Positions 2,613 to 29,439 of a stretch of DNA of 64,000 bases are shown here, in pieces. Under the pieces are notes generated by a model. It ran no database searches. It was not told the origin of the DNA and worked only from the letters and a program-made list of their open reading frames with translations. Position 1 is the first letter of the stretch. Each line of letters starts with the position of its first letter. This DNA is from Petrolisthes cinctipes. Lineage: Eukaryota; Arthropoda; Malacostraca; Decapoda; Porcellanidae. The translations under genes and the position numbers were made by a program. The stretch spans positions 88,501 through 152,500 of the forward strand of contig JAWQEG010000510.1 of assembly GCA_033782935.1 (NCBI GenBank), given 5' to 3'.

Positions 2613-2864
2613 TAAAATATAGTTATATTTCTTTCAGATAACACCAGTAATAGTGTGGCAATCCTGACACCAGAATATTACAGTAAATATTCAGTAAATG
2701 TTTGAATCTTCAAATGATGTAAGACTGGTATTGTTATCGTTTCAGATTCATATGAAGTAACACTGTGGTTGGCAGCCCTGACACCAATAACAGTGTGGTT
2801 GGCAGCCCTGACAACAGTAATAACCAAGTGGTCATATTGGTGGCAGAATAAAGCTGTGTTAGTG

Positions 2865-3170
2865 ATGGAGGTGGAAGGAAGTGACACCATCAATGTTGTC
2901 AGAGAAGAGAAGTGTAACAAGTTGGTCTGTCAACAATGTGGTCAAAAGTTTAGTAGGAAATGCCATCTCACTCACCATTTGTTGACTCATACTGGAAAGA
3001 AATCGTTTATGTGTGATGAGTGTGGTAAAAAGTTTAGTTGTAAATCTGACCTTAAGAAACACAGAATTGTTCACACAGGAGAGAGGAACTTTGAATGTGA
3101 AGAATGTGGTAAAAAGTTTGTGACAAATAGTGTTCTAAAAAAGCACATACTTATACACACAGGAGAAAAT
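2865..3170 (+). pseudogene. C2H2 zinc-finger gene, unit A, 5' part
   Basis: Opens at an ATG (protein start MEVEGSDTINVVREEK) and encodes three Krueppel-type C2H2 fingers with the TGEK/TGER-like linker (CQQCGQKFS..., CDECGKKFS..., CEECGKKFV...). Such proteins bind DNA in the nucleus; the target cannot be told. A consensus-like acceptor (TTATCGTTTCAG at about 2743) precedes it, so this looks like an internal or last exon. The array is cut after finger 3 by a palindromic insert at 3171, and its remainder lies at 3696-4443 with stops, so this copy is broken. Units B (24711) and C (33325) share the same leader and first finger. The upstream TTG at 2769 in the same frame is less likely to be a start. 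Confidence 0.75.
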
Positions 3171-3391
3171 GTTGGACTACTCTCAGTGTATGTGAGACAC
3201 GAAAAAGAAATCAGCAAAGGTGGACAGACAGGTGAAACGGGAGTTCCAACCCTTCCTATCACCAGTCCAGCGTCTACTCCTAGGGTAGACGCTGGACTGG
3301 TGATAGGGAGGGTTGGAACTCCCGTTTCACATGTCTGTCCACCTTTGCTGATTTCTTTTTCGTGTCTCACATACACTGAGAGTAGTCCAAC
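3171..3391. repeat. 221-bp near-perfect palindrome inserted in the zinc-finger array
   Basis: Runs from GTTGGACTACTCTCAG to its reverse complement CTGAGAGTAGTCCAAC around the centre TACTCCTAGGGTAGAC. Arms of about 105 bp differ at only a few positions. Only the right half is present in unit C (from 33584). It separates zinc fingers 3 and 4 of unit A. No transposase is seen; it resembles a foldback MITE. Confidence 0.9.
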
Positions 3392-3475
3392 ATACTCCCA
3401 AAGACATCACTCTCTCTCTATTTACACAATATATACAAACACGCTACAAACCACACCCTTTGTCTTAATTAGAGA

Positions 3476-3690
3476 GCCCTTGGATACTCTGCGATCAACG
3501 GTTAGGATGCAACTATAGACCCCTGGCTGGGGTCCATTGCTCCAAGATAACCTGAGAATAAGACAATTAAAAAAAAAAAAGAGCCCTTGGATACTCTGCG
3601 ATCAACGGTTAGGATGCAACTATAGACCCCTGGTTTGGGGTCCATAGCTCCAAGATAACGTGAGAATAAGACAATTGAAAAAAAAAAGAA
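3476..3690 (+). repeat. Two tandem SINE-like units with poly(A)
   Basis: Two copies of an approximately 100-bp unit starting AGAGCCCTTGGATACTC, containing GATCAACGGTTAGGATGCAA and ending in AGACAATT plus a run of A. The same paired arrangement occurs at 33783-34000 and 35761-35980. The A-rich end suggests a retroposed unit, but no clear Pol III A/B boxes are present, so the SINE label is tentative. Confidence 0.6.
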
Positions 3691-7072: not shown

Positions 7073-7191
7073 ATTCATTCAGTGAGGTGGATTCATTACG
7101 TAAATTTTGTGTTGCGTTTGAGGCCGCCCATAAGGACGCCACCCGCCCTGGTGTTAGTACAAAGAATATTGGGCGGGAAGGGCGGGAAGCC

Positions 7192-10100
7192 ATGGCGTCA
7201 GTGGCTACAGTGTCCTCGTTGCCAGACGCATTACAGGAGGAGGTTGGGCTCCCGCCACAGGCCGCGGGTGCCCGCCAGCCGCCACCTTATAAACCTCGCT
7301 GTGGCAACTGTGGATTAAAACACAAACCTGGGAAAGGTTCGTACCCTGCCGAGATGCTGGCATGCCACAACTGCGGTAAAACTGGACATTTGTGCAAAAT
7401 GTGTAGAAGCAAGGGTAAGCAGGTGGCAGCAACCGAGGAAATGGAGGCCTCTGGCATAATAATTGCCGCCACAAGGAACGTTGAGAGACAGCCTTTTATC
7501 TGGGTGAAGGTCAGTATTGGAAATAATGAGAGGAAGTCAGCCAAAATCCAGGTGGTGCCAGATACAGGAGCTCAAGTGTGTGTTGCTGGTCCAGGGTTGC
7601 TGGCCGCACTTAACATCATCAAAACATCGTTAGTGAACCGTGGAAATTTGAAAGATGTGGCAAATGTGAGCCTGAAACCCATAGGTTCATTCACATGCTG
7701 TATACAGCATGGTAGCAGAACCACGACACAAGAGATCTATATCTTAGAGACTGCTACTCGATGCTATGTGTCGCTACAAGCGTGTAAGGATTTAGGTTTG
7801 GTGCATGCTGACTTTCCTTACCAATCTCCAGTCGTAGCACCAACTTCTGCTGACGTTGGCAATGCTACTTCAGAGTCAGCTGACTACCTGCTAGCACGCC
7901 CAGATACAGTCCCGTTAACCCCGTTAGAAGAAAACGTGCCGCAGTTGGAGGCCTGGCTTCTTCGCCACTTCTCAGGATCCACATTTAACACTGACAGGAG
8001 CCCCTTGCCAGTAATGGAAGGCAAGCCACATAGTATCCACCTGCTACCAGATGCCAAACCCTATGCCTGCCACACACCGGCTTCGGTCCCAAGGCACTGG
8101 GAGGCGAAGGTGAAAAAACAGTTGGACGAGGACATAAGAAAGGGAATACTAGAACCAGTACCGGTTGGAGAGGTGACAGAGTGGTGCGCGAGAATGGTGG
8201 TAGTTGCAAAAAAATCAGGCCAGCCAAGACGAACCGTTGACTATCAGAAGCTCAACGCCGCCTGCAAAAGAGAAACACACCATACTCGTACACCATTTGA
8301 CTTGGTATCTGGAATCCCACGTCATACTTACAAAACCACATCAGACGCACATTGGGGCTTCCACCAAGTGGAGTTGCAGGAGGACAGCAAGAGGCTCACC
8401 ACCTTTATTACCCCATGGGGCAGGTACAGGTATCGTAGAACTCCTATGGGGCACTGTGCGGCTCCAGACGCCTACACTAGAAGGTTTGACGAGGCCATAG
8501 AGGATATACAGAGGAAATTTAAGTGTGTGGATGATACACTGTTATTCGATAACAGTGTAGAAGAGGCGTTCTGGCATACATATGATTTTTTAGAAACATG
8601 TGCCAGGAAGGGAGTAACACTAAAGCCAGAGAAATTCAAATTTTGCAGGAGGCAAGTAGATTTTGTGGGTTTCCATGTTGGCTGGGATGCTTTTAAGCCC
8701 ACAGAAGAAAGGTTGGCAGCCATCAGGAACGTTGACATGCCTGCCGAACCCTCACTAACTGATATCCGCTCCTGGCACGGGTTTGTCAATCAGCTAGCGC
8801 CCTTCCTCGCTACTGCACCCATTATGGAGCCCTTCAGAGAGTTACTGAAAAAACCACAAGGAAAAAAAGTGTACTGGGATGAAAATCTAAAGGAAAAGTT
8901 TAGGCAAGCAAAGGATGTCATTTGCAAGCTTGCAAAGGAAGGACTCTCATTTTATGACAAGGACAGGCCTACAGTTGTAGTGACAGATTGGAGCAAGGTG
9001 GGTATTGGGTTTGTAGTACTCCAACAGCATTGTTCCTGCCACCTGAAAGAAGCTCCATTCTGTTGCAAAAGTGGGTGGCGTCTGGCGCTGTGTGGCAGCC
9101 GCCACCTCACATCCGCAGAGGCAGGGTACGCACAAGTGGAAGGTGAGGCGTTGGCCGTCGCTTGGTGTCTTCGTAAAGCCCGCCTCTTTCTGCTTGGGTG
9201 CCCTAATCTCATCGTTATCACCGACCACCGCCCACTGGTAAAACTCCTGGGGGACAGAGAGCTGAAAGACATTGCCAACCCAAGACTATTTGGCCTTAAA
9301 GAAAAAACACTGCATTACAGATTTCAAATCAAGTATCTCCCAGGGAAACGTAACTCCGCAGCAGATTTCCTGTCTCGATACCCGGCTCTCTGTGCACCCC
9401 CAGATGCCACGGATGAAGAAGATGCAAACGACATGGAAGGTGCTATGGCAGCTGCAACAGTGGCTGCACTGAACTGTGACGATTGCATTGTGTTAGATAG
9501 TACAACGGTGGTACAGGCCCCTGCCGAGGACCCTGAATATCAGCTGCTCGTTGCCAAAGTAACAGCGGGTGATTGGCACCCACACCGAGCCCAGGAACTT
9601 GTCTGTCTTCGCCATTTGTATGGGGTGAGAGACAGGCTGGCAGTGTCACAAGGGCTGGTAATGTACACGTATGGACAGGGGTCAGTCCGTCTTGTCATAC
9701 CTATTGCCCTTAGAAAACATGTGGCGGAAAATCTTCACGCAGGGCATCAGGGCCTGGACGGGATGTTGAGAAGGGCAAGACAAACAGTGTATTGGCCTGG
9801 AATGGAGGGTGATTTGCAGCACCACAGAGATGTTTGTGCTGTCTGCAACGCTTACTCACCCTCACAAGCAGCTGAACCCTTAACTCTGACACCGCCACCC
9901 AAATACCCCTTCCAACATACGGTTGCTGATCTGTTCCAACTCGATGGACAAATGTATTTGGCATATGCTGATAGACTTACAGGGTGGCTGGAAATAGCAC
10001 ATTTTCCGAGCGGAGCCACATCAAGCAAGCTGTTGTCTGTAATGCGCCAGTATTTCCAAAGATGGGGCGCACCAGAGTCAATCTCCACAGATGGCGGAAC

Positions 10101-10770
10101 TAATCTAACCAGTGAAGAGATGTCCAACTTTCTCGAGAGGTGGGGAGTGGAGAGAAGAGTATCTTCCGCTCACTTTCCACAGTCCAATGGCCGGGCAGAG
10201 GTGGCCGTCAAGTCTGCCAAGAGGCTGCTTCGCGCTAACACAGGTGGCGGAGGCAGTCTACGTACAGACAAAGTGTCAGTGGCGTTGCTACAGTACTTGA
10301 ATACACAACTGCGTGGAGTAAAGAAGTCACCAGCACAACTGGCCATGGGGAGGCAGTTACGTGACGGCGTGCCTGCCCACCAGCAACACTACAAAGTTGA
10401 CAGCCACTGGCGGGGGGCCCTTCGGGCACGGGAGCGTGAATCAGTGAGGCAGCAGGGTGTGTGGGTGGAGAGGCAGGGAGCGACTAGAACACTCCCCCCG
10501 TTAATGCTCGGCACCCAGGTGTGGGTACAAAACCAGGAGACTAAAGTGTGGGACAGACGTGGGGTGGTCATGGAGACTCTTCCACATCGGCAGTATAGGA
10601 GGCATCTTCGAGCGGTGAGAGGCTCAAGCCACCCCACACAGCCACCATCACCGAACCTAATTCTACACTCAACGCGGTCCCACCCCACCCACACAGAAGC
10701 GACAGGCCGGCCACAGAGGCGTGTGAAACAGCCAGCTTGGATGTCCGATTATATAGCTGGCACCCAGTAG
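7192..10770 (+). CDS. Gypsy Gag-Pol polyprotein (K02A2.6-like)
   Basis: A single frame of about 1,190 residues from the first ATG (the frame is open from 7072, after a TAG at 7069). Order: a CCHC zinc knuckle (CHNCGKTGHLCKMC) near residue 60-70; aspartic protease with PDTGAQVC near 123; reverse transcriptase with the active-site box CVDD near 445; RNase H with VVVTDWSK near 597 and ITDHRPL further on; integrase with an H-H-C-C zinc-binding region near 850 and a D-D-E core (VADLFQLD about 910, STDGGTN about 964, GRAEVAVK about 1000). It acts in reverse transcription and integration of the element. There is no recognisable capsid before the knuckle, so Gag is either very reduced or supplied by other copies. 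No stops inside. Confidence 0.9.
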   Translation: MASVATVSSLPDALQEEVGLPPQAAGARQPPPYKPRCGNCGLKHKPGKGSYPAEMLACHNCGKTGHLCKMCRSKGKQVAATEEMEASGIIIAATRNVERQPFIWVKVSIGNNERKSAKIQVVPDTGAQVCVAGPGLLAALNIIKTSLVNRGNLKDVANVSLKPIGSFTCCIQHGSRTTTQEIYILETATRCYVSLQACKDLGLVHADFPYQSPVVAPTSADVGNATSESADYLLARPDTVPLTPLEENVPQLEAWLLRHFSGSTFNTDRSPLPVMEGKPHSIHLLPDAKPYACHTPASVPRHWEAKVKKQLDEDIRKGILEPVPVGEVTEWCARMVVVAKKSGQPRRTVDYQKLNAACKRETHHTRTPFDLVSGIPRHTYKTTSDAHWGFHQVELQEDSKRLTTFITPWGRYRYRRTPMGHCAAPDAYTRRFDEAIEDIQRKFKCVDDTLLFDNSVEEAFWHTYDFLETCARKGVTLKPEKFKFCRRQVDFVGFHVGWDAFKPTEERLAAIRNVDMPAEPSLTDIRSWHGFVNQLAPFLATAPIMEPFRELLKKPQGKKVYWDENLKEKFRQAKDVICKLAKEGLSFYDKDRPTVVVTDWSKVGIGFVVLQQHCSCHLKEAPFCCKSGWRLALCGSRHLTSAEAGYAQVEGEALAVAWCLRKARLFLLGCPNLIVITDHRPLVKLLGDRELKDIANPRLFGLKEKTLHYRFQIKYLPGKRNSAADFLSRYPALCAPPDATDEEDANDMEGAMAAATVAALNCDDCIVLDSTTVVQAPAEDPEYQLLVAKVTAGDWHPHRAQELVCLRHLYGVRDRLAVSQGLVMYTYGQGSVRLVIPIALRKHVAENLHAGHQGLDGMLRRARQTVYWPGMEGDLQHHRDVCAVCNAYSPSQAAEPLTLTPPPKYPFQHTVADLFQLDGQMYLAYADRLTGWLEIAHFPSGATSSKLLSVMRQYFQRWGAPESISTDGGTNLTSEEMSNFLERWGVERRVSSAHFPQSNGRAEVAVKSAKRLLRANTGGGGSLRTDKVSVALLQYLNTQLRGVKKSPAQLAMGRQLRDGVPAHQQHYKVDSHWRGALRARERESVRQQGVWVERQGATRTLPPLMLGTQVWVQNQETKVWDRRGVVMETLPHRQYRRHLRAVRGSSHPTQPPSPNLILHSTRSHPTHTEATGRPQRRVKQPAWMSDYIAGTQ

Positions 10771-11444: not shown

Positions 11445-11705
11445 GTGAGGAAGGAAGGTTTAGGGATTCAGGTAGGGGAGTATGTACTGAGTATTTTGTT
11501 GTATGCAGATGATGTGGTGATTCTGAGTGAGACAGGTGAGACACTGCAGAGAATACTTGATGTAGTTACAGAGTATGGGAATGATTTTAATGTCAAGTTT
11601 GGGAGTGATAAGAGCAAAGTATTGGTAGTGAATGGGGATGACCGGGATATAGGTAGAACGAGAAGACTGGGTGAAAATGTGATTGAAAGGACACAAGAGT
11701 ATAGA
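11445..11705 (+). pseudogene. LINE reverse transcriptase, second segment (catalytic YADD)
   Basis: Continues the LINE frame after the first gypsy insertion: VRKEGLGIQVGEYVLS, then LLYADDVVILSETGE, which is RT motif C with the catalytic aspartates, and on to ERTQEYR, where the second gypsy element interrupts. This segment itself has no stop. Confidence 0.85.
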
Positions 11706-13429
11706 TGTAAAAGCTCTATTTTTGTCCCCTTACGTTACTCTTTGATTTTTCTATTTTTACTCTACTTGTGGAGGGAAACAAAAATCTACTGCCTTTAACA
11801 AAACAAAAAAAAACAACCAGTGTATGCTACAACTCTATCCTATAGCTGTATCAACCTGGTCTGGAAAAAAAAACAAGATACCGATGAGGAACAGGACTTG
11901 CCTTGCGAATACCAAAAATAAATCATACAAAGGACAAGTCCAGCTCCTCTACAGTACTGGGGAAACGCTGCCACCACCAGACCAAAGTCGATCAGAGGAA
12001 CCAAGTGAGCACACACCGGAAGGGTAGCGTAACGTTACGTTAAGAAGGCTCGCGAGTAAGCAACCCAGACTACAATTTTAACGGGGGTAAGATCAGTGTT
12101 GTGAAAGGAGAACTAATCTCTATATAGGTACACAGTCTATTTGTTATATCGGTGACGGAAATACTCAGACAATTATAAACCCGTTTATTATATCCACCTA
12201 TTTGTTACAAGTACAACAAGTTCCCTATAATAATAATTTCTGTCCCCCCCCCCCCCCTTTGCTAATATTACCTACTCCCAGTTCTGTCAACTAGGATAGG
12301 AATAATTCCGGGTCTCGCCAGTTGACAGAGCTAACACATAAATCCAAAACAAAAACAATTATTACTATGAAATATCCCCCCTCCCTTAATACAGTTCCTA
12401 CTCCCTTTTCTGTCTACTAGGACAGGAATAATTCCGTGCCTCGCTAGTGACAGATCTAAGTACATATAAAAAAAAAAATATTACATGAAGTGTCCCCCCT
12501 CCCACAATATTTCAAATAATTCCTAATAATAAATTTTGCACAATAAGGCCGAAATATAGTTAATACCAAAAAAAAAATAACATCCTAATCTCAATATTAT
12601 AAATGAAAATTTAAAATTGCCAGCAACTGTAGTTAATTTTCTAAGTACCACGTGGTTCACTTTACACCAAGGGAGATCGCTAATAATGGCTGCCACCAGC
12701 AGAGACGAGATCAGAATGAGCATGAGAAAAAAAACATACTTTACTTACTATGCCTGAATGTGACCACACAATATTCCTTAGTTAGTTATATCCCATCACG
12801 GGACTTAGTAGATTCACCACACTATATTCACAATACTATATTTATGATGAGAGAGAGAGAGTTGGAACTCTTACCTGCCACCAGCAGAGACGAGATCAGA
12901 ATGAGGTAGTAGCAACTCAGGGTACCGCCTCGCCATCTCCCCCACTCTCACTCTCTTAAGCAAAGTAGTGACCAACTCATCTTAATTTCTGGCAAATCCA
13001 TCAGTTCTACCCTTACTGGTGTATATAATTACATAACCTAATTTAAACATATAAGTGAGCTCAAATATATTGCTTTCTCCCTTGTGTAAAGTTTTACACT
13101 ACTGTTATTTACATATTCAAGGCATGTATTGTTCCGCCAACAAGAAAATGTACTGTCCCGACTGTAGGCCCTAACTAATCTAATTAATTTTCTAAGCAAG
13201 TTACAATTAAATGCCGGTAACAGTATAGGAATGTTAGCTTCGTTATTATATATTATAATTAGAAATGCAGGTTATTCCCTGTCTCCATTAAATTATTTTA
13301 CATTCCTTTCTTAAATCACCGCCTGGCTACTCCCTACAATTCTACACTAAAAACCTATTCTAATACATATAAATATACAACACCCGTAAATATCCCGAAT
13401 AATAATACATATAAAATAGGGGTGTTACA
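11706..13429 (-). repeat. 3' LTR (minus-strand element), 1,724 bp
   Basis: On the plus strand it starts TGTAAAAGCTC and ends GGGGTGTTACA. It contains poly-C runs, two tandem-like blocks with TCTGTCNACTAGGA(T/C)AGGAATAATTCC, and no convincing ORF. Partner copy at 20138-21860. Confidence 0.92.
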
Positions 13430-13430
13430 C

Positions 13431-13446
13431 ACGTCCCACCTTCCTT
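13431..13446 (-). promoter_or_regulatory. Polypurine tract of the 10-kb gypsy element
   Basis: On the minus strand AAGGAAGGTGGGACG lies just upstream of the 3' LTR, in the expected position. Confidence 0.65.
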
Positions 13447-14392
13447 AGCTGGAACTTACAGTGAAAATTAATTTATCTATTTCCCTTAAAAAAAATTTAG
13501 TTCAATTCCCCCCCATTTACTCTTTACATACATTCCGTTTATCACTATCACTACACCTTACTGAACAATATCAGACACTATTCATCCTAATTGGTTAGTC
13601 AGTGTTAATACACTGCCAACTTTTTCTCCTCCCCAGTCTTTAGACTGTATCCCCTTCCCGCAGGAAAGAATTCTCCACCTTACCTTAAATACCCTAGATA
13701 TTATTGACACCTCGTCCCAGTCAGAATCCTTTGTCAAGTTCCATAACCCCGGGAGAACTTCCTTAAGGTTCTACCGTCACTAAACCCACCCGCGATTATC
13801 CCAAGCATTATCTGAGTTTTCATACATTCTATTCATTCATTCTTTTATCATTCACTCCTCCATTCAAACCTCAGACTCTGCAAGGCATGATAACCCGGAA
13901 TGCAGTAAGTGATACAGGGGCCCTGACAATGGCCCTGACTGTATACTGGAAGAGCCCTATGGAAATGGAGGGGTGGATATCTCCTCCCCACCATCACCTC
14001 CTCTTCCCATTAAAACCAAGTGTCACTTAACACCCATAACTACACACAAAAAAAATTATGAGCTGGGTTTCTAGCTCTTGTGATGAATGGTGCCCTCTTT
14101 TGACTTCAGGACATAGGGAACCATGACATTTTTCCAACTTTTTCTTTTCAACTTTTGCCCTATTTTTTTTCCTACTTTTAATTTCCACTGTTATATTTTC
14201 TAATTTTCAATATATTATTTTATCACATTTATTTCCCATTATTTGGATTATTTTTCTAATTTTTCCATATATTCATTTTTTTTTTTTTTTTACTTCTATT
14301 TCCCATTTGGTTTATTTTCTATTTTTCCAATATATTCTGTTATAACAATTTTTCCTATCATTTGGTGATTTTCTAACTTCCAGGCTTATTTT
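13447..14392 (-). other. 3' non-coding region of the 10-kb gypsy element
   Basis: About 950 bp between integrase and the LTR, T-rich on the plus strand (TTTTTCCAATATATT-like repeats at 14150-14390). No env-like frame was found. Confidence 0.7.
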
Positions 14393-17300
14393 CTAAATTT
14401 CCTCCAGAAGCCTTCTGGGAGGTCGTCTCTGTCGTGGAGGAAGTACCATATCCTCCTCCTCATCTTGTCCATCACCTCCTTCCACTTCCTCTGGTTGCAC
14501 TATTAGGTCATTTCTGCTCACATAGGGCTTGATTTTTTCTGCAGCCCTCTGGATGTTTTTCCCAGTAAATGGGTCCTCTAATAAATACACCAATCCATTT
14601 CTTATAACTTCTACCACTTTATATGGGCCCTTCCATTTCTGGTTCAGTTTGGCACAGGTACCCGGTATAATTGTTTCCTGTTTTACCCACACTAGTGCTC
14701 CTCGTTCTACTTTTTCATGTTTTCTCTGCCTATTGGCTACCGCCCGATACCTCCTAAGTGATACCGTACTTGCTTCTTGTATCATTTGTTTCATTCTTCC
14801 TGTATTGTCAGTATCGGATGGAATATTTAGTAGCGGTGCCGAGATGTTGCGGGGCTGATGTCTCCCGAAGAATGCCACATAAGGCGTCACCTTGGTACTA
14901 CTGTGGACGGCTGAGTTCATCACAGACTGACATTCGGCCAGCATGGAAGGCCAACGTTGTGGATAGCCCTCACACAGCTGGGCCAACACCGTCTTCAGGG
15001 TCCGGTGCATCCTCTCGATCATCCCGTTGGACTGGGGATGATAAGGTGTGGAGAATAGTAGTTCCACACCATGCTGGTCTGCCCAGGTCCGCATTTCTTG
15101 GCCGGTAAACTCCCTGGCGTTGTCACACAGCAACGATCTAGGGCCGCCAAAGTCTGTAACAAACTGGGTGAGCCTAGCAACAATTCCCTTGGCGTGTTTA
15201 CTTTTTAGGGGGTAAAATTTGGTGTACCGTGAAAAAGGGTCTATGATAGTTAAGATATATCTGTTACCCTCTGCACCAGAGGTCATATCAGTCAAATCTA
15301 TGGCAATTCTGTCTAAGGGTTGTATGATGGTGGGTAGTTCTTGATATTGCTGGGACAGACCCTTATTATACTTATATTGCTGGCAATTTAGACATTGTTT
15401 AATATATTTGACTACATCAGACCGTAATGTTGGCCAATAATACAATTCCTCTGCTTTCTTAATAGTTTTGAATTGTCCAAAATGTCCTGACTGATCATGA
15501 GCTAGTTCTAGTGCTACCTTTACTAATGTTTTAGGTACAACTACAGTATAATAATAACTCTCATCTTCATAAGTCCTCACATAATGGAGGATTCCCTCAT
15601 TTACTTCTAATTGGTCTAAAGTGGCTCGGGCTATTTTCCGCCTGGGCACCTGACCTCCCTCAAAATAGTCAAGCAATTCACTCCAGGTGGCATCATTTCT
15701 CTGCGCCTGCATAAATGCTTCCTTTGTCAACCCCAACCATGTAAATACTGGTGGGCGTGATATCACTTGTACTGGCCTAGATAATTGGTCTGCCACTACG
15801 TTGTCTTTCCCCTTTACATATCTTATTTGGAAATTATATTCCCTCATCTCTAACTTCCATCTTGTGACCCTTGGTGACTTTGTTCTACGTCGGAAAATAC
15901 TTGTTAGTGGTTGATGATCGGTTTGAATTAAGAATGTTGTTCCCCACAAATAATGGTGATAATGGCGACACGCCAATACCACTGCCATTGCCTCCTTGTC
16001 AGTTACACTATATCTTTTTTCACAAGAATTAAGTTTCTTTGAAAAATATCCCAATGGTCGGACTGTCTGGTCTACTTGTACCTGATGTAGGACCGCTCCT
16101 ACATACTCATCACTAGCATCGGTGACTAATACTAGGGGTAATTCTGGTTGGTATTTAGCTAAAATAGGAGGTGTCATTAATTTTTCCTTTAGTATTTCGA
16201 AGGCTTTCTGACACTTATCATTCCACTGAAAAACAGTGTTAGCCCTCGTAAGATTGGTTAAGGGTGTGGCAATTTTAGAAAAATTTGGTACAAAGCTCCT
16301 ATAAAATCCACACATTCCGATGAAACGCCTGACTTCCTTTACATTCCTTGGTGGTAACTGTTTACTTATGGCCTCCAAATTCTTAGGATCTGGCAAACTA
16401 CCATTCTTTGATACCTTATGTCCCAGAAACTATACCTCTCTTTTTACAAAATCACACTTGGTTAGGTTTAGTTTTACACCCTGTTCACTAAATAATTGGA
16501 ATAATTTTTTAAGGCGTTGCATTAATTGTGAAAAATCATCAGCCCATATAATAACATCATCTAAGTAATTTTTAACCCATCCCTCACGTAACAATGGGTT
16601 TAATAGCTCAGCCATTTTGCGAGAAAAGATGGCTGGTGCACAACTCAGTCCAAAGGGTAACCTTCGGAAACGGTACAATGATACCCCATCCGAAAAGGTG
16701 GTTAAGTTCCGACTTTTCTCATTCAACTCTATTTGAAAATAGGCATCCTTTAAATCTAATGTTATATAAAATTGATGCCCGGCTGCATGTCCCACTAAAT
16801 CATCTAATCTAGGTAGTGGAAACACATCCATTGACAAGTGTTCATTAACCCTTCTAAAGTCTAGGCACATTCGTTTGCTACCATCCGGTTTGTTAACCAG
16901 CACTATAGGTGATAACCACGCTGCACTTGAGGGTTCGATCACTCCTCGTTCTTCCATCTCACTTAACATTTTACCAATTGTTTCTTTTGCGTGTTCGGGA
17001 TATCGATACATTGGGGATCTACAAGGGTTCGGATTTGATACCTCTATGTTGGCTGGTTCTCCTTCAATCTTCCCAAGTTTTTTCTCACTAAGCATAAACA
17101 ATTTATCATGGTCTAGGACAACTCGTGTTAGCTGCCTTAATTGTTCTTCATCAAGATGTTTCCAATTTTGTTTGTTAATTAACAGTTGCAATCTTTCCTG
17201 TCTTGTACCTTGCTCTTTTACTTTATCATGGTGTGGCATCAATTCATTGGCTATTGTTACTATGTTTACCGGGGATTTAAGCTCAATATTAATTGATGAA

Positions 17301-18280
17301 TCATCCTCGATAAGTGCTACAATGGTATTTTTCTTTACCAACTTCGATATTTTGGTGGTATTATCTAGGGTGATGAGAACAGTTCCTTCCGCATCTACCG
17401 TTACTAACAAAAGAGTAGTTTGTGATGAGCAATTTCTGTGGGGCCTAATCAGTAGTGTTGTACCAGGTGGCTCACTCACTTCTGTACGTATGACCTTGGC
17501 TTGGTACGGTTCCAACTTTACATTATCTTTTATATGTACCTTTCTTCGATTCTCATCAAGAATTTGAGCTTTAGTATGCTCTCTTATTTGTTTAATCGTT
17601 CGGCGTCACAACCTTATATGATTTACCTGATACGGAGCACCTCCCCAAATCATTTCCTTATCCTTACAATTCCAAGTTAAGCTTGACTTACTGATTATCT
17701 CACAACCCAGTAAAATTTCCCTGTCTAAATATACATCTGGTACTACCGTTACCCACTGACTACTTACTCCCTGATCTCCCACATGGACTTCAATCTGCGC
17801 CATACCTAGTACCTTAAGATGTTTTCCAGTAATCCCAACTGGATTAGTTCTACCCTTGGTCGTATCTATTTGTAACCCTAGCCGTTTGACAGCACTTTTC
17901 TTTATTAAAGTTATGACACTTCCGGTGTCAATAATAGCTGCACACACCTTACCATTTACTATAATATTAATGACAGGTGACACATCTTCTCTTGTTCCTA
18001 TTATATTTCTGGTTTGATAGTAATTAGAATAACCAGTACCATTATGTTGTGGAGGGCCATACCCCGAAAAACCTGGTCTATAAGTAGCTTTTCCAGGACA
18101 TGTGGGACTATTACTCCAACAACCCGGACGCAAACAATTAAAACATTTACCTTTTTCTGGTTTGCTCCAACAATCTTTATAGTCATGAGTGTTCTTTTTA
18201 CAAAAAGCGCAATACTTAGAAGTTTGGGATTTACCCCCTGATGACAACTTTTCCATATTTCGTTTTAACTCCTCTACCAT
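14393..18280 (-). pseudogene. Gypsy protease-pol frame with two in-frame stops
   Basis: One frame of about 1,295 codons interrupted by TGA at 17606-17608 and TAG at 16430-16432; no frameshift separates the pieces. Segment 1 (17606-18280): a CCHC knuckle (CAFCKKNTHDYKDC), a second cysteine-rich motif, and an aspartic protease with AAIIDTGSVITLI. Segment 2 (16430-17515 and flanks): RT with LRRLPFGLSCAPA-like motif B and the catalytic YLDD. Segment 3 (14393-16396): RNase H (LVTDASDEYVGAVLHQ, QTDHQPLTSIF), then integrase with H-H-C-C (HFGQ... CLNCQQYK) and D-D-E core (AIDLTD, LLCDNAREF, GMIERMHR), ending in an acidic/arginine tail. Each stop could be a single C-to-T change. The frame begins inside the 3' end of gag, overlapping by about 25 nt in the -1 frame, suggesting -1 frameshifting, though no textbook slippery heptamer is evident. 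Confidence 0.88.
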
Positions 18281-18294
18281 CTTACCTAATTGTA

Positions 18295-19461
18295 CTATTT
18301 CATTTCTACTGCACCTTTTTCTTTATCTTGGTTAGGCTCATTTGCCATTTGCCTATCTGCCTGTGGCAATATCTCAATTGGCTCTCGTTTTTGCATCATT
18401 AACATTCTTTCATTTTCTACTCTTTCAAGGAAATCCTTTAGTGGAATATGATCATCCATGAAAGATTCTAGCCTATCCCTATTATTTCGAGGAAAACCTT
18501 GTAACAACTTTCGTTTTATCATTCTATCCCTTTCTGGTAACTGTTGACCTTGAAATCTACCCTGTATTGCTGCATAATGACACTTATATTGATGGGCAAA
18601 GGTTTGCGGATTTTCTATCCAATCATACTGAAATTTATCACATTGTCTCCAAGCTTGATCAAAATTTAATTCCACTTTAAATTCTCTCGTAAAATAAGTT
18701 CTCAAATCACCCCATGTAAATATTTCTCCCCTTTTCTGGGCAGTATGTATTAGGACTGCTAAATCATTGTCTACTCGGGATTTCGCTACTTCCACACGAG
18801 TACAAGAATCTTCTGTGCACCTTTCCACTGCCTCAAAGAACATTTGTAAACGAGCCGAGGAATCCAAGCTTTGCAATGTATCCAGTTCTAGTTTAGTGAT
18901 ATCACGGGGTTTAACTAATGGTGGAGTAATGTTCCTTGCCAGGTTTGATACATTTGGATTATTAGTTACGGTTGATAATGGAGGATGTACTACAGGGGTT
19001 GTATTTGGGCAAAAAGTTACGGGTGGTAGATGGTAATCTTCGGTTGTTGGCTGAAAAAACTGAGTATTTATTCTATGATGAACTGGGGATAACTGTGGTC
19101 GTTGAACTGGCTCATGTCTCATCAAAGATGGTGAGAATGGAGGTGTTAATTCCCGCTCAATAAGAGGGACAAATTGTCTCTCTTCCGGCCTTTCCAACTC
19201 ACCCACTCTCTCCGTTAAGTTACTAATTTGCTCCGTCATGTCTTTTAAATGATCTAACCCCTGTAACTCCTGTACTTTCTTTGCTATTCCAGCCACTTGT
19301 TCCGCCATTAAATTCAACTCCCTCAGTTCGAATCTTACTTCGCTATTTATCTCCTGATCCCCTGTTTTTTCGATTGCTCCTACACCACCAACAGCCCCTT
19401 CACTCTGCACTTCTAATGCTTCTGCCATGATTTCTGCTCTAACGGCACTACGTGTTATCAT
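18295..19461 (-). CDS. Gypsy Gag (capsid) protein
   Basis: 388 residues from an ATG (MITRSAVRAEIMAEALEV). The N-terminal 100 residues are rich in E/Q/L heptads (ELNLMAEQVAGIAKKVQEL) and probably coiled-coil. A proline-rich middle precedes a capsid-like helical region (residues about 190-370: DLRTYFTREFKVELNF, HYAAIQGRFQGQ, MIKRKLLQGFPRNN) typical of retrotransposon gag. Zinc knuckles are not in this frame but at the start of the following protease frame. Packages element RNA in cytoplasmic particles. Intact here. Confidence 0.82.
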   Translation of the reverse strand: MITRSAVRAEIMAEALEVQSEGAVGGVGAIEKTGDQEINSEVRFELRELNLMAEQVAGIAKKVQELQGLDHLKDMTEQISNLTERVGELERPEERQFVPLIERELTPPFSPSLMRHEPVQRPQLSPVHHRINTQFFQPTTEDYHLPPVTFCPNTTPVVHPPLSTVTNNPNVSNLARNITPPLVKPRDITKLELDTLQSLDSSARLQMFFEAVERCTEDSCTRVEVAKSRVDNDLAVLIHTAQKRGEIFTWGDLRTYFTREFKVELNFDQAWRQCDKFQYDWIENPQTFAHQYKCHYAAIQGRFQGQQLPERDRMIKRKLLQGFPRNNRDRLESFMDDHIPLKDFLERVENERMLMMQKREPIEILPQADRQMANEPNQDKEKGAVEMK

Positions 19462-19542
19462 TTTCCTTGTAATAGTTTTAATTTTTATCTACTCCCCCCT
19501 TTTTACTTTAATTTCCCAATTTACGTTACTTTATTCGTTACT

Positions 19543-20067
19543 TTACTTCCTTAATCTCTCCTCCCAGTGACCTATTACTTCTTTCAATTTTCTTTGTATT
19601 TTCCTTTGTCCCTCTCTATCAAAATGTACCCCGTCTTGTGCTAAATGTTGCTCTATTTCTTTACTGTTAAAATTGATATAATTGAATGTTCTACTATTGC
19701 CCACTATCTTATTCACCGATTTTTGTATTTTTCTATATCTCTCACTGGGAATTGGCCTACCTCCTGGATAAATTCTATTTTCTATTTCTACAATTATAAC
19801 TTTTGAGCCACATTCCTTTTCAATAAATTTTGCTATTTCTAATATTTCATTAACCAATACCCGCGGTTGAGTTTCTTCCTTAATATCGTTACTTCCCAAC
19901 CACAATATAGTGAGATCATGCCTCCACCTACTCACACTTTGCAGTCTCTCATCACTATAAAATGATTGGGCACGGGCACCGGGTGATCGATAAATAACTA
20001 CCTCAGCACCATCAACCGTCAGTTCTCGAGGAACTTGACTGTGTCCTACTATTGCTACCCTAAACAT
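19543..20067 (-). CDS. SGNH/GDSL-hydrolase-like protein encoded upstream of gag
   Basis: 174 residues from the first ATG (MFRVAIVGHSQVP), starting about 50 nt after the primer-binding site, where gag would normally begin. It shows all four SGNH blocks in order: Ser10 in VGHSQ (block I, GDS replaced by GHS), Gly30 in SPGARAQ (block II), Asn60 in WLGSNDI (block III), and Asp145/His148 in DGVHFD (block V, DxxH). Spacing and total length suit a minimal SGNH fold. The family hydrolyses esters of lipids or sugars. SGNH/esterase domains are known in ORF1 of CR1-like LINEs, but I do not know of one as a separate first ORF in a gypsy element. The frame is intact, unlike pol. Substrate and role in the element are unknown; a degenerate or binding-only role is possible because the block I aspartate is missing. 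Confidence 0.78.
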   Translation of the reverse strand: MFRVAIVGHSQVPRELTVDGAEVVIYRSPGARAQSFYSDERLQSVSRWRHDLTILWLGSNDIKEETQPRVLVNEILEIAKFIEKECGSKVIIVEIENRIYPGGRPIPSERYRKIQKSVNKIVGNSRTFNYINFNSKEIEQHLAQDGVHFDREGQRKIQRKLKEVIGHWEERLRK

Positions 20068-20118: not shown

Positions 20119-20136
20119 ATCCCACCGCTGCCACCA
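20119..20136 (-). promoter_or_regulatory. Primer-binding site for tRNA-Leu
   Basis: On the minus strand TGGTGGCAGCGGTGGGAT begins one nucleotide after the LTR. It is the complement of a tRNA 3' end of the form ATCCCACCGCTGCCACCA, which is that of eukaryotic tRNA-Leu (AAG/TAG isoacceptors) as I recall it. Confidence 0.85.
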
Positions 20137-20137
20137 G

Positions 20138-21860
20138 CGTAAAAGCTCTATTTTTGTCCCCTTACGTTACTCTTTGATTTTTCTATTTTTACTCTACTTG
20201 TGGAGGGAAACAAAAATCTACTGCCTTTAACAAAACAAAAAAAAACAACCAGTGTATGCTACAACTCTATCCTATAGCTGTATCAACCTGGTCTGGAAAA
20301 AAAAACAAGATACCGATGAGGAACAGGACTTGCCTTGCGAATACCAAAAATAAATCATACAAAGGACAAGTCCAGCTCCTCTACAGTACTGGAGAAACGC
20401 TGCCACCACCAGACCAAAGTCGATCAGAGGAACCAAGTGAGCACACACCGGAAGGGTAGCGTAACGTTACGTTAAGAAGGCTCGCGAGTAAGCAACCCAG
20501 ACTACAATTTTAACGGGGGTACGATCAGTGTTGTGAAAGGAGAACTAATCTCTATATAGGTACACAGTCTATTTGTTATATCGGTGACGGAAATACTCAG
20601 ACAATTATAAACCCGTTTATTATATCCACCTATTTGTTACAAGTACAACAAGTTCCCTATAATAATAATTTCTGTCCCCCCCCCCCCCTTTGCTAATATT
20701 ACCTACTCCCAGTTCTGTCAACTAGGATAGGAATAATTCCGGGTCTCGCCAGTGGACAGAGCTAACACATAAATCCAAAACAAAAACAATTATTACTATG
20801 AAATATCCCCCCTCCCTTAATACAGTTCCTACTCCCTTTTCTGTCTACTAGGACAGGAATAATTCCGTGCCTCGCTAGTGACAGATCTAAGTACATATAA
20901 AAAAAAAAATATTACATGAAGTGTCCCCCCTCCCACAATATTTCAAATAATTCCTAATAATAAATTTTGCACAATAAGGCCGAAATATAGTTAATACCAA
21001 AAAAAAAATAACATCCTAATCTCAATATTATAAATGAAAATTTAAAATTGCCAGCAACTGTAGTTAATTTTCTAAGTACCACGTGGTTCACTTTACACCA
21101 AGGGAGATCGCTAATAATGGCTGCCACCAGCAGAGACGAGATCAGAATGAGCATGAGAAAAAAAACATACTTTACTTACTATGCCTGAATGTGACCACAC
21201 AATATTCCTTAGTTAGTTATATCCCATCACGGGACTTAGTAGATTCACCACACTATATTCACAATACTATATTTATGATGAGAGAGAGAGAGTTGGAACT
21301 CTTACCTGCCACCAGCAGAGACGAGATCAGAATGAGGTAGTAGCAACTCAGGGTACCGCCTCGCCATCTCCCCCACTCTCACTCTCTTAAGCAAAGTAGT
21401 GACCAACTCATCTTAATTTCTGGCAAATCCATCAGTTCTACCCTTACTGGTGTATATAATTACATAACCTAATTTAAACATATAAGTGAGCTCAAATATA
21501 TTGCTTTCTCCCTTGTGTAAAGTTTTACACTACTGTTATTTACATATTCAAGGCATGTATTGTTCCGCCAACAAGAAAATGTACTGTCCCGACTGTAGGC
21601 CCTAACTAATCTAATTAATTTTCTAAGCAAGTTACAATTAAGTGCCGGTAACAGTATAGGAATGTTAGCTTCGTTATTATATATTATAATTAGAAATGCA
21701 GGTTATTCCCTGTCTCCATTAAATTATTTTACATTCCTTTCTTAAATCACCGCCTGGCTACTCCCTACAATTCTACACTAAAAACCTATTCTAATACATA
21801 TAAATATACAACACCCGTAAATATCCCGAATAATAATACATATAAAATAGGGGTGTTACA
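20138..21860 (-). repeat. 5' LTR (minus-strand element), 1,723 bp
   Basis: Almost identical to 11706-13429. Its plus-strand first base is C where the other copy has T, breaking the TG...CA terminus. This LTR holds the element promoter, but no core motif was identified with confidence. Confidence 0.92.
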
Positions 21861-22803
21861 TAGATACTTGGGAATAATTGTGGATGAGAAAGGGTGTGAT
21901 AGGACAAAGACTGATAGGTTATCAAGAGCAAACCAGTGGGTAGGAAGACTAGGAAGTGTGTCACGGTGTACAGCCAATAAGTATGAGGTAGTGTGTGGTG
22001 TATGGAAAGGTATGGCTGTACCTGGACTCATGTGTGGACTGGAGACTATGACATGGACAGTGAATGACTTTAACAGACTGGAAGTAGTACAGAATAGGAT
22101 AGGAAGAACAGCATTAGGTGCAAGCAAGTATGTAGGTGTGGAAGCAATAAGAGGTGACGCTGGATGGAGTACGTTTCAGGAGAGGATAGCCAAAGGAGTG
22201 TTGAGATATAAGGTTAGACTAGAGGGAATGAATGAAGACAGATGGGGTATAAATGGACAGGACGGTACACAAAGTAAAGAAGGCTGTCTGATAAGAGAAT
22301 GGAAAAGTGTGGAATGCAGTACCCAATGCTAGATGAAAGGGGCAGATGGAGTGATGAGAAATGGATGAATGAGATTAAGACACGGATACAAGAAATAGGC
22401 AGAGATGAATGGATGAGAGGCATAAGTCAGAAGAGCACGCTAGATTGGTACTCCTCTAAGGACATACCAAGGAGTGAAGTGTTCTATGATGGTAGTTGGG
22501 GAAGTGAGCTGATGTTTAAGGCAAGAACAAAGTCACTGGAGGTGAATGACAGAATATCTAGATGGAGTAGTGAAGGTGTGTGGGATGTGTGAGAGTAGGG
22601 AAGATGAGACAGTAGAACATGTGTTGATGGTATGTGATAAATATGAACGAGAGAAAGCTATCATGCTGAATGTGGTAATTAGTGAACTAGGAGTGAGAAA
22701 ATGGAGGGAGATGGTGGAAGCGACAGTGGCAGCTAAAGTGCTGCTAGGTCTTAGTGAACGAGAGCTGTACAGTCCAGTGATAATAGAGAGTGTGAAAGAA
22801 TGA
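21861..22803 (+). pseudogene. LINE reverse transcriptase, C-terminal segment with CCHC finger
   Basis: Resumes as RYLGIIVDEKGCDRT directly after the TAGA duplication. The thumb/C-terminal region follows (GRLGSVSRCTANKYEV, GLMCGLETMTW, RTALGASKYVGVEAIRGDAGW). Frameshifts near 22290 and 22555 divide it. It ends with the zinc-knuckle CGMCESREDETVEHVLMVC (C-x2-C-x9-H-x4-C), common after RT in several LINE clades, and a stop at 22801. Confidence 0.8.
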
Positions 22804-24510: not shown

Positions 24511-24710
24511 GTGCTACAGAATATTACTGTAAATATTCAGTAAATGTTTGAATCTTCAAATTATTTAAGACTGGTATAGTTATTGTTTCAGATTCATATG
24601 AAGTAACACTGTGGTTGGCAGCCCTGACACCAATAACACTGTGGTTGGCAGCTCTGACAACAGTAATAACCAAGTGGTCATATTGGTGGCAGAATAAAGC
24701 TGTGTTAGTG

Positions 24711-25358
24711 ATGGAGGTGGAAGGAAGTGACACCATCAATGTTGTCAGAGAAGAGAAGTGTAACAAGTTGGTCTGTCAACAATGTGGTCAAAAGTTTAGT
24801 AGGAAATGCCATCTCACTCACCATTTATTGACTCATACTGGAAAGAAAATGTTTATGTGTGATGAGTGTGGTAAAAAGTTTGTGAGAAAAGCTGATCTAA
24901 AGAAGCACATACTTATACACATAGGAGTGAAGAACTTTGAATGTGAAGAATGTGATAAAATGTTTGTGAGAAAAGGTGATTTAAAGAGGCACATACTTAT
25001 ACACACAGGAGTGAAGATCTTTGAATGTGAAGAATGTGGTAAAAAGTTTGTGACAAAGGGTGAAATAAAACGACACATACTTATACACACAGGAGTGAAG
25101 GACTTTGAATGTGAAGAATGTGGTAAAAAGTTTGTGAGAGAGGATAATTTAAAGCAACACATACATATACACACAGGAGTGAAGAAATTTGAATGTAATG
25201 AATGTGGTAAAAAGTTTGTGAGAAAGAGTGATCTAAAGAAACACATACTTATACACACAGGAGTGAAGGACTTTGAATGTGAAGAATGTGGTAAAAAGTT
25301 TCTGACAAAGGGTGAGTTAAAGCGACACATACTTATACACACAGGAGAGGAACTTTGA
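24711..25358 (+). CDS. C2H2 zinc-finger protein, unit B (most complete copy)
   Basis: 215 residues from the ATG (MEVEGSDTINVVREEK) with seven C2H2 fingers in tandem: CQQCGQKFS, CDECGKKFV, CEECDKMFV, CEECGKKFV (twice), CNECGKKFV and CEECGKKFL types, each of 28 residues and joined by TGV/TGK linkers, ending TGEEL. Relative to unit A, two bases are missing in GAGAGGAAC near 25347, which ends the frame early; at least three more fingers follow out of frame to 25752, and a MITE sits in the ninth. An acceptor-like TTATTGTTTCAG precedes the leader at about 24589. Expected to be a nuclear DNA-binding protein if expressed. It lies in a tandemly duplicated repeat unit, so it may be a multicopy transposon-associated gene and not a single host locus. 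Confidence 0.65.
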   Translation: MEVEGSDTINVVREEKCNKLVCQQCGQKFSRKCHLTHHLLTHTGKKMFMCDECGKKFVRKADLKKHILIHIGVKNFECEECDKMFVRKGDLKRHILIHTGVKIFECEECGKKFVTKGEIKRHILIHTGVKDFECEECGKKFVREDNLKQHIHIHTGVKKFECNECGKKFVRKSDLKKHILIHTGVKDFECEECGKKFLTKGELKRHILIHTGEEL

Positions 25359-27344: not shown

Positions 27345-29439
27345 GAGTCGTATTGGCTTCTTCGACGTAACCTACGACTTCTCAAAGGACACCTTCATGA
27401 TGATTTGTTGGAATCCGTACTTCAGACAGCCAGTAACAAGTGTAACCATGAAGAGAACAAGACCAGGATTAGACACAACAGAGTCATCAGCGAACTGTGC
27501 AGTGCCAGTGAGTGGAGCAACTGTGGTGTTATGGGCTCAGTGGTGAATTTGTCGTCCTATGTGCTATCGGAAATTGAAAATCAAGTGTTGCAACTGGGTT
27601 TTTCTTTTGCTCTAAAACCTGGTAGAGATATTGCCCTAGATTTTGTTGCGTCTGTATTTAATGGAAGACATAATTTCCCGTGCCTTAATGGTTTTATAAT
27701 CAATGGTTTTTTGGACCATTTTAACTCCTATGATTCCATTCCTAGGCGGTTTCGCTTGGCCCTGGAGAATTTAAGAAAAAACAACTTCATTTTCATAACT
27801 AAAGCTTACAAGAGCAACTCAGTTGTGATACTTGATAAAGTTAACTACGAAGAAAAGATGTTAAATCTATTAAATGACGTCACCACTTATGAAAAGTTGA
27901 GATTTTCTGCCTTAAAGCGTCTGTCCACCCAGTTCAACCGTACTGTGAAAGAACTACTCAATAATGTGCCCAACATCGATGCCAAATGGTTCATGCAAGT
28001 CAACCCTAAACTTCCACACATATATGGTCTACCCAAAACACATAAGAATGGTGTTCCTCTTCGCCCCATTGTTTCGTACTGTGGATCATTTAGCTACAAA
28101 TTATCAAAATTCTTAGCCAATAAATTATCACCATTAGTGGGATGCATTTCAAGTTCACATATTAAAAATTCCTCACATTTTATTGATGAAATTAAGTCTC
28201 TAAACCTAACTAATGGAAAAATGGTAAGTTTTGATGTAGATTCACTCTTCACTAAAGTGCCACTTAACGATGTATTAGAATTTCTAGGTAGAAAAATGCC
28301 AGACTATGATTTAGATTTGGGTATGCCAATATCTTCCTTCCTTGAATTAATTAAACTTTGTGTTTCATCCAATGCTTTTTCTTTTAATGGTAAATTCTTC
28401 ATTCAGCGATTTGGCAATGCTATGGGGTCGCCATTATCCCCCATCCTTAGTAATTTGTATATGGAATTTTTTGAAACTTGAGTTATTATCCAACATTGCA
28501 CCCCCAAATCTAATATGGCATAGGTATGTTGATGACATTTTCTCCTTTTGGCCCAACAGTCTCCATAATTTTGAAGATTTCTTTTGCAAATTAAATGACT
28601 TGGTTCCATCTATCAATTTCAAAATTGAATGGGAAATTGATGGGTCCCTACCCTTCCTTGATGTTTTGGTTACTAAAATTAATGACTTCCCTACTTTCAC
28701 TGTCTATAGGAAACCCACTCATTGTGATATGTACATTCATTTTTTCTCTTATCATAATGATTCTATCAAAATGTCTGTCATATCTACCTTGTTTCTCAGA
28801 GCATTAAGAATTTGTAGCCCCCAAAATTTAGAGGTAGAAAACAACAAAATTTGGATTATATTCCGTAACTTGAAATATCCTGATTGGTTTATAAGAAAAG
28901 CTTATTATAAGGCTAGGAAAACCTTCTATGTTCCTAAATGTCAGTCAGAAAAGAAACCTTATTTATGTCTTCCTTATGTAAAAAGTCTGGAGAAAATTCA
29001 GTCAGTTAGCAGAGAACTTGATGTAAACATAGCCTTCAAATATACTTCTAGTATCAAAACTACTCTTGTAAGAAATAATGCCACCGTTCAGCCCCAAGCA
29101 GGAGTATACAAAATTCCTTGCAAAGACTGTGACTTAGTTTATATAGGTGAAACTGGGAGATCTTTAGATGTTAGAATGAAAGAACATAAACGAGATATGA
29201 CGAATTGTAACACAAATAATGCTAACTTTGTCCATGCATATGACAACAACCACTGTATTGATTGGAATTCTGGTAAAATGATAATTAAGTGCAACAATTT
29301 CAAGAAACGTAGAATATTAGAATCAGTATGTATACAGCACTATAAAAACTTTAACTTAAATGAAGGTATGTTCAAACTAGATCCATTAATGAGAGCACTA
29401 GTGGTCAAATCCCTCCCAGATGTGGGGTCGGATCCCTGA
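27345..29439 (+). pseudogene. Penelope-like RT/GIY-YIG protein with one frameshift
   Basis: The first part (27345-28481; no ATG near the start) holds the PLE RT: YGLPKTHKNGVPLRPIVS, SFDVDSLFTKVPL (motif A) and GNAMGSPLSPILSNLYMEFF (motif B). A one-base frame change occurs in the T-run at about 28470-28480. The second part continues with IWHRYVDDIFSFW (motif C, catalytic YVDD), then PFLDVLVTK and YRKPTHCDMYIHF, and ends in a GIY-YIG nuclease: GVYKIPCKDCDLVYIGETGR with the Arg/His/Glu-bearing helix RMKEHKRD, including the CKDC cysteines typical of PLEs. About 690 residues in all. It primes reverse transcription at a nicked target. A single indel inactivates it or demands frameshifting. Confidence 0.9.

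Follow-up and report, generated by a model that had tools for sequence, protein, structure and literature searches.

The 64,000-nucleotide stretch of the Petrolisthes cinctipes contig JAWQEG010000510.1 analysed here (forward-strand positions 88,501 to 152,500; hereafter, the window) carries a long terminal repeat (LTR) retrotransposon in which a separate open reading frame (ORF) for a predicted SGNH hydrolase stands ahead of gag. The element lies on the minus strand and is composed of the following features:

20139..21860, minus: 5' LTR, 1722 bp, delimited by alignment with the other LTR
11707..13429, minus: 3' LTR, delimited in the same way
11702..11706: left copy of the target-site duplication TAGAT in the flanking sequence (4 bp with the LTR ends set at TG..CA)
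21861..21865: right copy of TAGAT in the flanking sequence
20119..20136, minus: primer-binding site, 18 nt, beginning 3 nt beyond the point where the aligned 5' LTR ends
19543..20067, minus: SGNH hydrolase ORF, 174 aa, ATG at 20067, stop codon ending at 19543
19462..19542, minus: A-rich spacer between SGNH and gag, 81 nt
18295..19461, minus: first part of gag, 388 aa, with 16 homologues
17606..18280, minus: zinc knuckles of gag (by eye) and an aspartic protease of retroviral type (Pfam RVP 1.9e-7, gag-asp_proteas 4.8e-8)
16430..17515, minus: reverse transcriptase (RT) part (Pfam RVT_1 6.7e-25)
14393..16396, minus: RNase H, integrase zinc domain and integrase core (RT_RNaseH_2 4.8e-34, Integrase_H2C2 5.9e-20, rve 1.7e-15)
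13430..14392, minus: interval between pol and the 3' LTR, 963 nt, with no listed ORF of at least 100 aa

The Pfam domain order (protease, RT, RNase H, integrase) is that of Ty3/gypsy elements and, together with the LTRs, the target-site duplication and the primer-binding site, supports the identification of a Ty3/gypsy retrotransposon with an additional ORF ahead of gag. The primer-binding site presumably matches tRNA-Leu; ARAGORN found no tRNA gene anywhere in the window. This copy is young but not whole. Its two LTRs are 99.71% identical over 1723 columns (4 mismatches and 1 gap opening); gag shifts frame upstream of the zinc knuckles, at a point that most full-length relatives in the gag alignment and at least one other copy read through, and pol contains two in-frame stops flanking the RT part, near 17608 and 16432. 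SGNH and gag lie in one frame, separated by the SGNH stop and two more in-frame stops. A chance origin of the upstream frame was rejected: when 5000 first-order Markov sequences were generated on the model of the leader, the longest open run was 149 codons and none attained 174.

The product of this ORF displays the SGNH landmarks in order, namely the block I Ser10 in GHSQ, the oxyanion residues Gly30 and Asn60 (the latter in GSND), and the block V pair Asp145 and His148 in DGVH, and its predicted structure shows the alpha/beta/alpha SGNH core. Ser, Asn, Asp and His are all kept in 92 of 97 family proteins. All 20 members of the SGNH alignment match the Pfam SGNH family at E 0.01 or better, and a profile built from the family matches PDB 4c1b (E 2.6e-5, residues 4-166 of 171). 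These results support the view that the ORF encodes an SGNH hydrolase with its catalytic residues present, that is, a predicted enzyme. Relatives outside the host were also sought: no relative was confirmed in viral contigs searched with the single SGNH sequence, the SGNH and gag profiles and the RNase H-integrase frame, nor in prokaryote contigs searched with the SGNH profile, and a structure search among viral models returned many phage and giant-virus SGNH domains, none of them closer in kind than the PDB matches.

An earlier note, made from the letters of the window alone, had proposed a gypsy element with an SGNH-like ORF before gag, an intact 174-codon frame with the four landmarks at these positions, and two stops in pol, and all of this was borne out. 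The note had also read the intact frame beside a damaged pol as a hint of different constraint. This part did not hold, because at a rate of three lesions per roughly 5.1 kb a stretch of 525 nt would be expected to carry only about 0.3, so that the window copy by itself says nothing on constraint. The evidence comes from other copies. Neither of the outcomes that the note had named as refuting was seen: the SGNH core is present in the predicted fold, and the frame is retained by other family members.

Placement of the SGNH gene directly before gag was found to recur. Among the first eight loci read, the window copy included, the ORF is followed by at least the start of gag in all eight and directly preceded by an LTR in six, two loci being rearranged (L004 and L008). 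The host genome was then searched with the SGNH protein cluster P0001; 150 of 475 candidates were scored and 26 further loci were read with their context, 16 of which have SGNH directly before a gag of the same type. Ten of these (L054-L063) form one family, with a primer-binding-like site 72-92 nt ahead of the ORF and the same-type gag after it in every copy. The remaining six (L064, L065, L074, L077, L078 and L079) come from 16 more diverged loci; in L078, a shortened SGNH without its end is fused with gag in a single open frame of 581 codons. In addition, SGNH cluster P0001 and gag cluster P0122 are both listed with one 3693-bp contig, a pairing not seen for the other 15 gag clusters.

Several of the diverged loci have remnants of an element downstream. 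Pfam RNase H or integrase remnants follow the SGNH gene in L067 and L072, and gypsy-like scraps were seen by eye in L069, L071, L073 and L075, with no Pfam match in the three scanned; these six look like deletion derivatives or decayed copies. No element gene was recognised in the stretch read at L066, L068 and L070. In L069, L070, L071 and L072 the SGNH frame is open and intact gag or pol was not seen downstream; these loci are possible non-autonomous derivatives.

A second type of element was found behind related SGNH genes. The SGNH frame of L076 is 63-67% identical to its best four matches (P0020, P0022, P0024 and P0028), which form part of a separate clade in the SGNH tree, and behind it come a gag with DUF1759, a protease with DUF1758 and the beginning of an RT; the locus also carries a DDE transposon insertion. 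The same gene order without the DDE insertion occurs in L082 and L083, and thus in all three copies read. Pfam E values for L076, L082 and L083 are 1.2e-21, 4.2e-20 and 9.4e-20 for DUF1759, and 8.4e-7, 1.4e-6 and 5.3e-7 for DUF1758; an RVT_1 start was detected in two of the three (E 0.0027 and 6.1e-4), below the Pfam cut-off. We take DUF1759 and DUF1758 to be hallmarks of BEL/Pao elements, and the three copies appear to be of BEL/Pao type, as judged from gag, protease and the start of RT. A comparison of L081 and the start of L076 with L080 found no repeat, within a stretch that stops short of the element's far end. Since SGNH precedes DUF1759 and DUF1758 genes in these copies, the same genome has related enzymes as first ORFs of both Ty3/gypsy and BEL/Pao-type elements. 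The gene may have reached both superfamilies by exchange or by repeated capture.

Selection on the ORF was assessed among close copies. The 1.48-Gb host assembly contains 256 candidate places for the ORF DNA, of which the 40 best, the window copy included, were scored and read (97-100% identity). The SGNH frame is intact in 34 of these 40 and broken in 6; Ser, Asn, Asp and His are unchanged in all 34 intact copies, and Gly30 is altered in one. Single-change codons in 35 full-length copies (27 distinct) comprise 26 synonymous and 29 nonsynonymous variants, giving an omega-like ratio of 0.34 with transitions weighted 2 and 0.37 with transitions weighted 3 (binomial P 1.6e-4), compared with 1.68 and 1.04 for the same sites in the other two frames. 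Moreover, the synonymous to nonsynonymous counts are 6:16 in variants seen once versus 20:13 in shared ones (Fisher P 0.027), as expected if source copies are constrained while dead copies drift. Both results are indicative of purifying selection on the SGNH ORF.

Some copies are arranged head to tail in the assembly (L049, L050, L051, L052 and L053), either as true arrays or through an effect of assembly. Neighbouring units in L049, L050, L051 and L053 have a common LTR or LTR part (LTR-SGNH-gag-pol-LTR-SGNH and so on), and in L052 pol passes into the next SGNH without an LTR. The overlapping parts of the units are 99.5-99.9% alike, and the periods are about 7.3-8.5 kb.

Regarding translation, the SGNH AUG is the first AUG between LTR and gag and has a weak context, and the gag AUG has A at -3. 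From the SGNH AUG to the gag AUG, the window copy contains 5 ATGs in all frames versus 14.5 expected from base composition, with none in the last 351 nt before gag; observed and expected numbers are 23 and 23.2 for the whole of gag, and 72 and 60.7 for pol. L079 also has a strong deficit (4 versus 14.4). The ATG deficit of the window copy fits leaky scanning. A spliced gag messenger with an acceptor just before gag is disfavoured, the longest pyrimidine run in the spacer being 2 nt. At the protein level, internal methionine makes up 97 of 18310 residues (0.53%) in 100 SGNH proteins versus 150 of 6717 (2.23%) in 16 gags, and ranges from 0.08 to 0.84% across the six clades counted (86 of 97 proteins). 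It is rarest, at 2 of 2505, in the clade closest to the BEL/Pao-type copies, and there the all-frame ATG count shows hardly any depletion.

Taken together, we propose, with a probability of roughly 0.6, that the ORF is a dedicated accessory first cistron of an LTR retrotransposon lineage and encodes a small SGNH-type acyl-ester hydrolase. The predicted fold with its catalytic residues, the location ahead of gag in several Ty3/gypsy families and one BEL/Pao-type family, and the purifying selection among copies come directly from the data. The product would be a stand-alone cytosolic enzyme, translated ahead of Gag from the 5' end of the full-length RNA and presumably starting at the first AUG after the LTR. 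In the window family, some ribosomes would pass this weak-context AUG and start at gag, by leaky scanning or by restarting after short frames. The enzyme may hydrolyse an acyl ester of a lipid or of an acylated protein, and this might let Gag particles form on membranes or depart from them, a role like that put forward for the ORF1 esterase of the LINE ZfL2-1, which binds charged phospholipids and liposomes (PMC3905857; this and the other papers are cited from excerpts). A membrane role in particle assembly or release is favoured because of this analogy. A broader proposition appears rather doubtful, namely that acyl-ester hydrolases serve the LTR retroelements of decapod-like genomes as a first gene that is under selection and can be swapped, common to Ty3/gypsy and BEL/Pao, and would remodel membranes so that particles assemble, leave or pass on, as Gag membrane targeting or env does in retroviruses.

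A number of observations weigh against the proposed accessory hydrolase. The window protein scores 32.7-32.8 bits with the Pfam SGNH/GDSL model, just under the gathering cut-off of 32.9, and the second-family frame L054 has no Pfam match at 1e-3. Foldseek superposition on 4c1b was poor (TM 0.44, rmsd 19.8, 15% identity), for which the domain swap in that crystal (PMC3905857) may be responsible. As for gene order, no same-type gag was found within the fetched stretch in 10 of the 26 further loci, among them the BEL/Pao-type L076, and the SGNH frame is broken in L062 (by an internal stop), L067, L068, L075 and L077. The selection tests are only indicative, because the 40 copies are the best-scoring of 256, so that the intact fraction is biased upward, and because many are near-identical members of arrays; the P values, besides, take distinct changes as independent. 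With respect to leaky scanning, four of the ten second-family copies (L054, L056, L057 and L059) have TTG at the place of the first ATG, their SGNH frame being open otherwise; in these, either the start has been lost or a non-ATG start is used. The ATG deficit is weak in L062, L064, L065 and L074 (7-9 versus 10.2-13.5) and small or absent in the BEL/Pao-type copies (10-13 versus 12.4-13.5), these counts leaving out L054, L056 and L059, whose first codon is TTG. The first kilobase of the window gag is itself ATG-poor (14 versus 19.7), and a synonymous-codon shuffle of the window ORF found no significant ATG deficit (6 versus 7.1, P 0.31). Because of the low first kilobase of gag, the null shuffle and the smaller or absent deficit of other families, the family-wide scarcity of methionine is only partly explained, and leaky scanning as a general cause of the methionine-poor protein was only partly supported.

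Among the alternatives, the enzyme could disarm a host response by stripping acyl or acetyl groups from a restricting host protein, a lipid messenger or a sugar. The nearest folds, which include acetyl- and sialate O-acetylesterases, PAF acetylhydrolase and thioesterases, would suit such a function, as would a small, stand-alone protein with no second domain tying it to Gag or RNA. However, a resemblance in fold reveals no substrate, and the ORF has no link to host defence in this analysis, which makes this explanation possible but unlikely. Still less probable is that the protein acts by binding rather than catalysis, a mode proposed for Oskar's OSK domain, and serves for instance as an adaptor that binds RNA or membranes. 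A C-terminal helix of the window protein that appears basic by eye, a match to Pfam OSK in one of the 20 alignment members (E 0.0035; not the window protein) and the existence of SGNH proteins without activity (PMC3905857) speak for it; nevertheless, a pure binder need not keep the Ser, Asn, Asp and His residues that are retained in 92 of 97 proteins and in every intact close copy (one of which lacks Gly30). A requirement for passage between cells or animals, in place of env, is very unlikely: the window copy has no env-like frame among the listed ORFs after pol and a GDSL esterase has been suggested to help membrane passage in rotifer elements (PMC5408684), but the protein starts at the first core strand, with no signal peptide or membrane segment apparent by eye. 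Finally, a captured host gene carried as a roleless passenger in one element family, for which the capture of host genes by retroelements and the frames broken in 6 of 40 close copies and 5 of 26 more diverged loci could be invoked, is already disfavoured to the point of being barely credible by a nonsynonymous deficit confined to the correct frame and by the presence of the gene in several diverged Ty3/gypsy families and a BEL/Pao-type family.

Other features of the window were recognised by eye, all on the plus strand:

7087-10770: a further long frame of a retrotransposon (1227 aa), comprising zinc knuckle, protease-like, RT, RNase H and integrase-like segments
27405-29439: Penelope-like frames in which a GIY-YIG-like end comes after RT
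39628-42775 and 54167-56749: LINE-like endonuclease/RT frames
2769-3518 and 24615-25358: a pair of related C2H2 zinc-finger frames that start almost alike

No SGNH/GDSL ORF before gag was seen in the literature searched, a result that is no proof of absence, as subscription papers, preprints and Repbase reports were outside the scope; the excerpts of PMC9289625, PMC5718144, PMC6431247, PMC6338049, PMC2774666 and PMC3286476 held no closer parallel. The earlier note's remark that an independent first ORF of this kind was not known as described in a Ty3/gypsy element therefore stands, with close prior art in PMC5408684, PMC9210276, PMC3185748 and PMC3485330. Accessory ORFs upstream of gag are known from other systems. 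In walleye dermal sarcoma virus (WDSV), orf c lies just upstream of gag and is presumed to be translated from full-length RNA, but it encodes a mitochondrial, apoptosis-linked protein of a retrovirus with env, and no SGNH link is seen in the excerpt (PMC3185748). Rice Retrosat2 ORF0, also present in RIRE3 and RIRE8, precedes the gag-pol ORF, and ester hydrolases were inferred from modelled structures for part of the group; unlike the gene described here, ORF0 was found by its authors only in grasses and is very divergent between elements, and an SGNH assignment is not seen in the excerpt (PMC3485330).

SGNH esterases themselves occur in LINEs, Penelope-like, Ngaro and rotifer LTR elements. As in the ORF1 of CR1, L2 and RTEX LINEs (PMC4120745 for CR1 and L2; PMC3905857 for ZfL2-1, PDB 4c1b), the fold is predicted here for the first ORF of a retroelement; however, whereas the LINE esterase forms one domain of a coiled-coil protein, and its element lacks Gag and has an endonuclease-RT ORF2, here it is a separate 174-aa protein before gag, protease, RT and integrase. 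Ngaro elements, of the DIRS order, also have an additional SGNH frame, but it lies downstream of the tyrosine recombinase, and the repeats of these elements are split direct ones (PMC9210276). The rotifer Vesta LTR elements share with the window element a stand-alone SGNH/GDSL frame, with catalytic residues reported intact, and a GDSL esterase/lipase is also present in Athena elements; in Vesta it is ORF3, located after pol and missing from the earliest branches, in contrast to a first ORF before gag, a comparison made by description (PMC5408684). Thus, retroelement-borne SGNH hydrolases were already known, and their spread over two LTR superfamilies is the freshest part of the present results. 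In P. cinctipes the enzyme stands as a gene of its own, first in order, in multicopy elements where selection on it can be measured; it sits beside a true gag and occurs in two LTR superfamilies within the same genome. This disentangles it from the Gag-like role seen in LINEs, provides a clean protein to assay, and prompts the question of module exchange between superfamilies.
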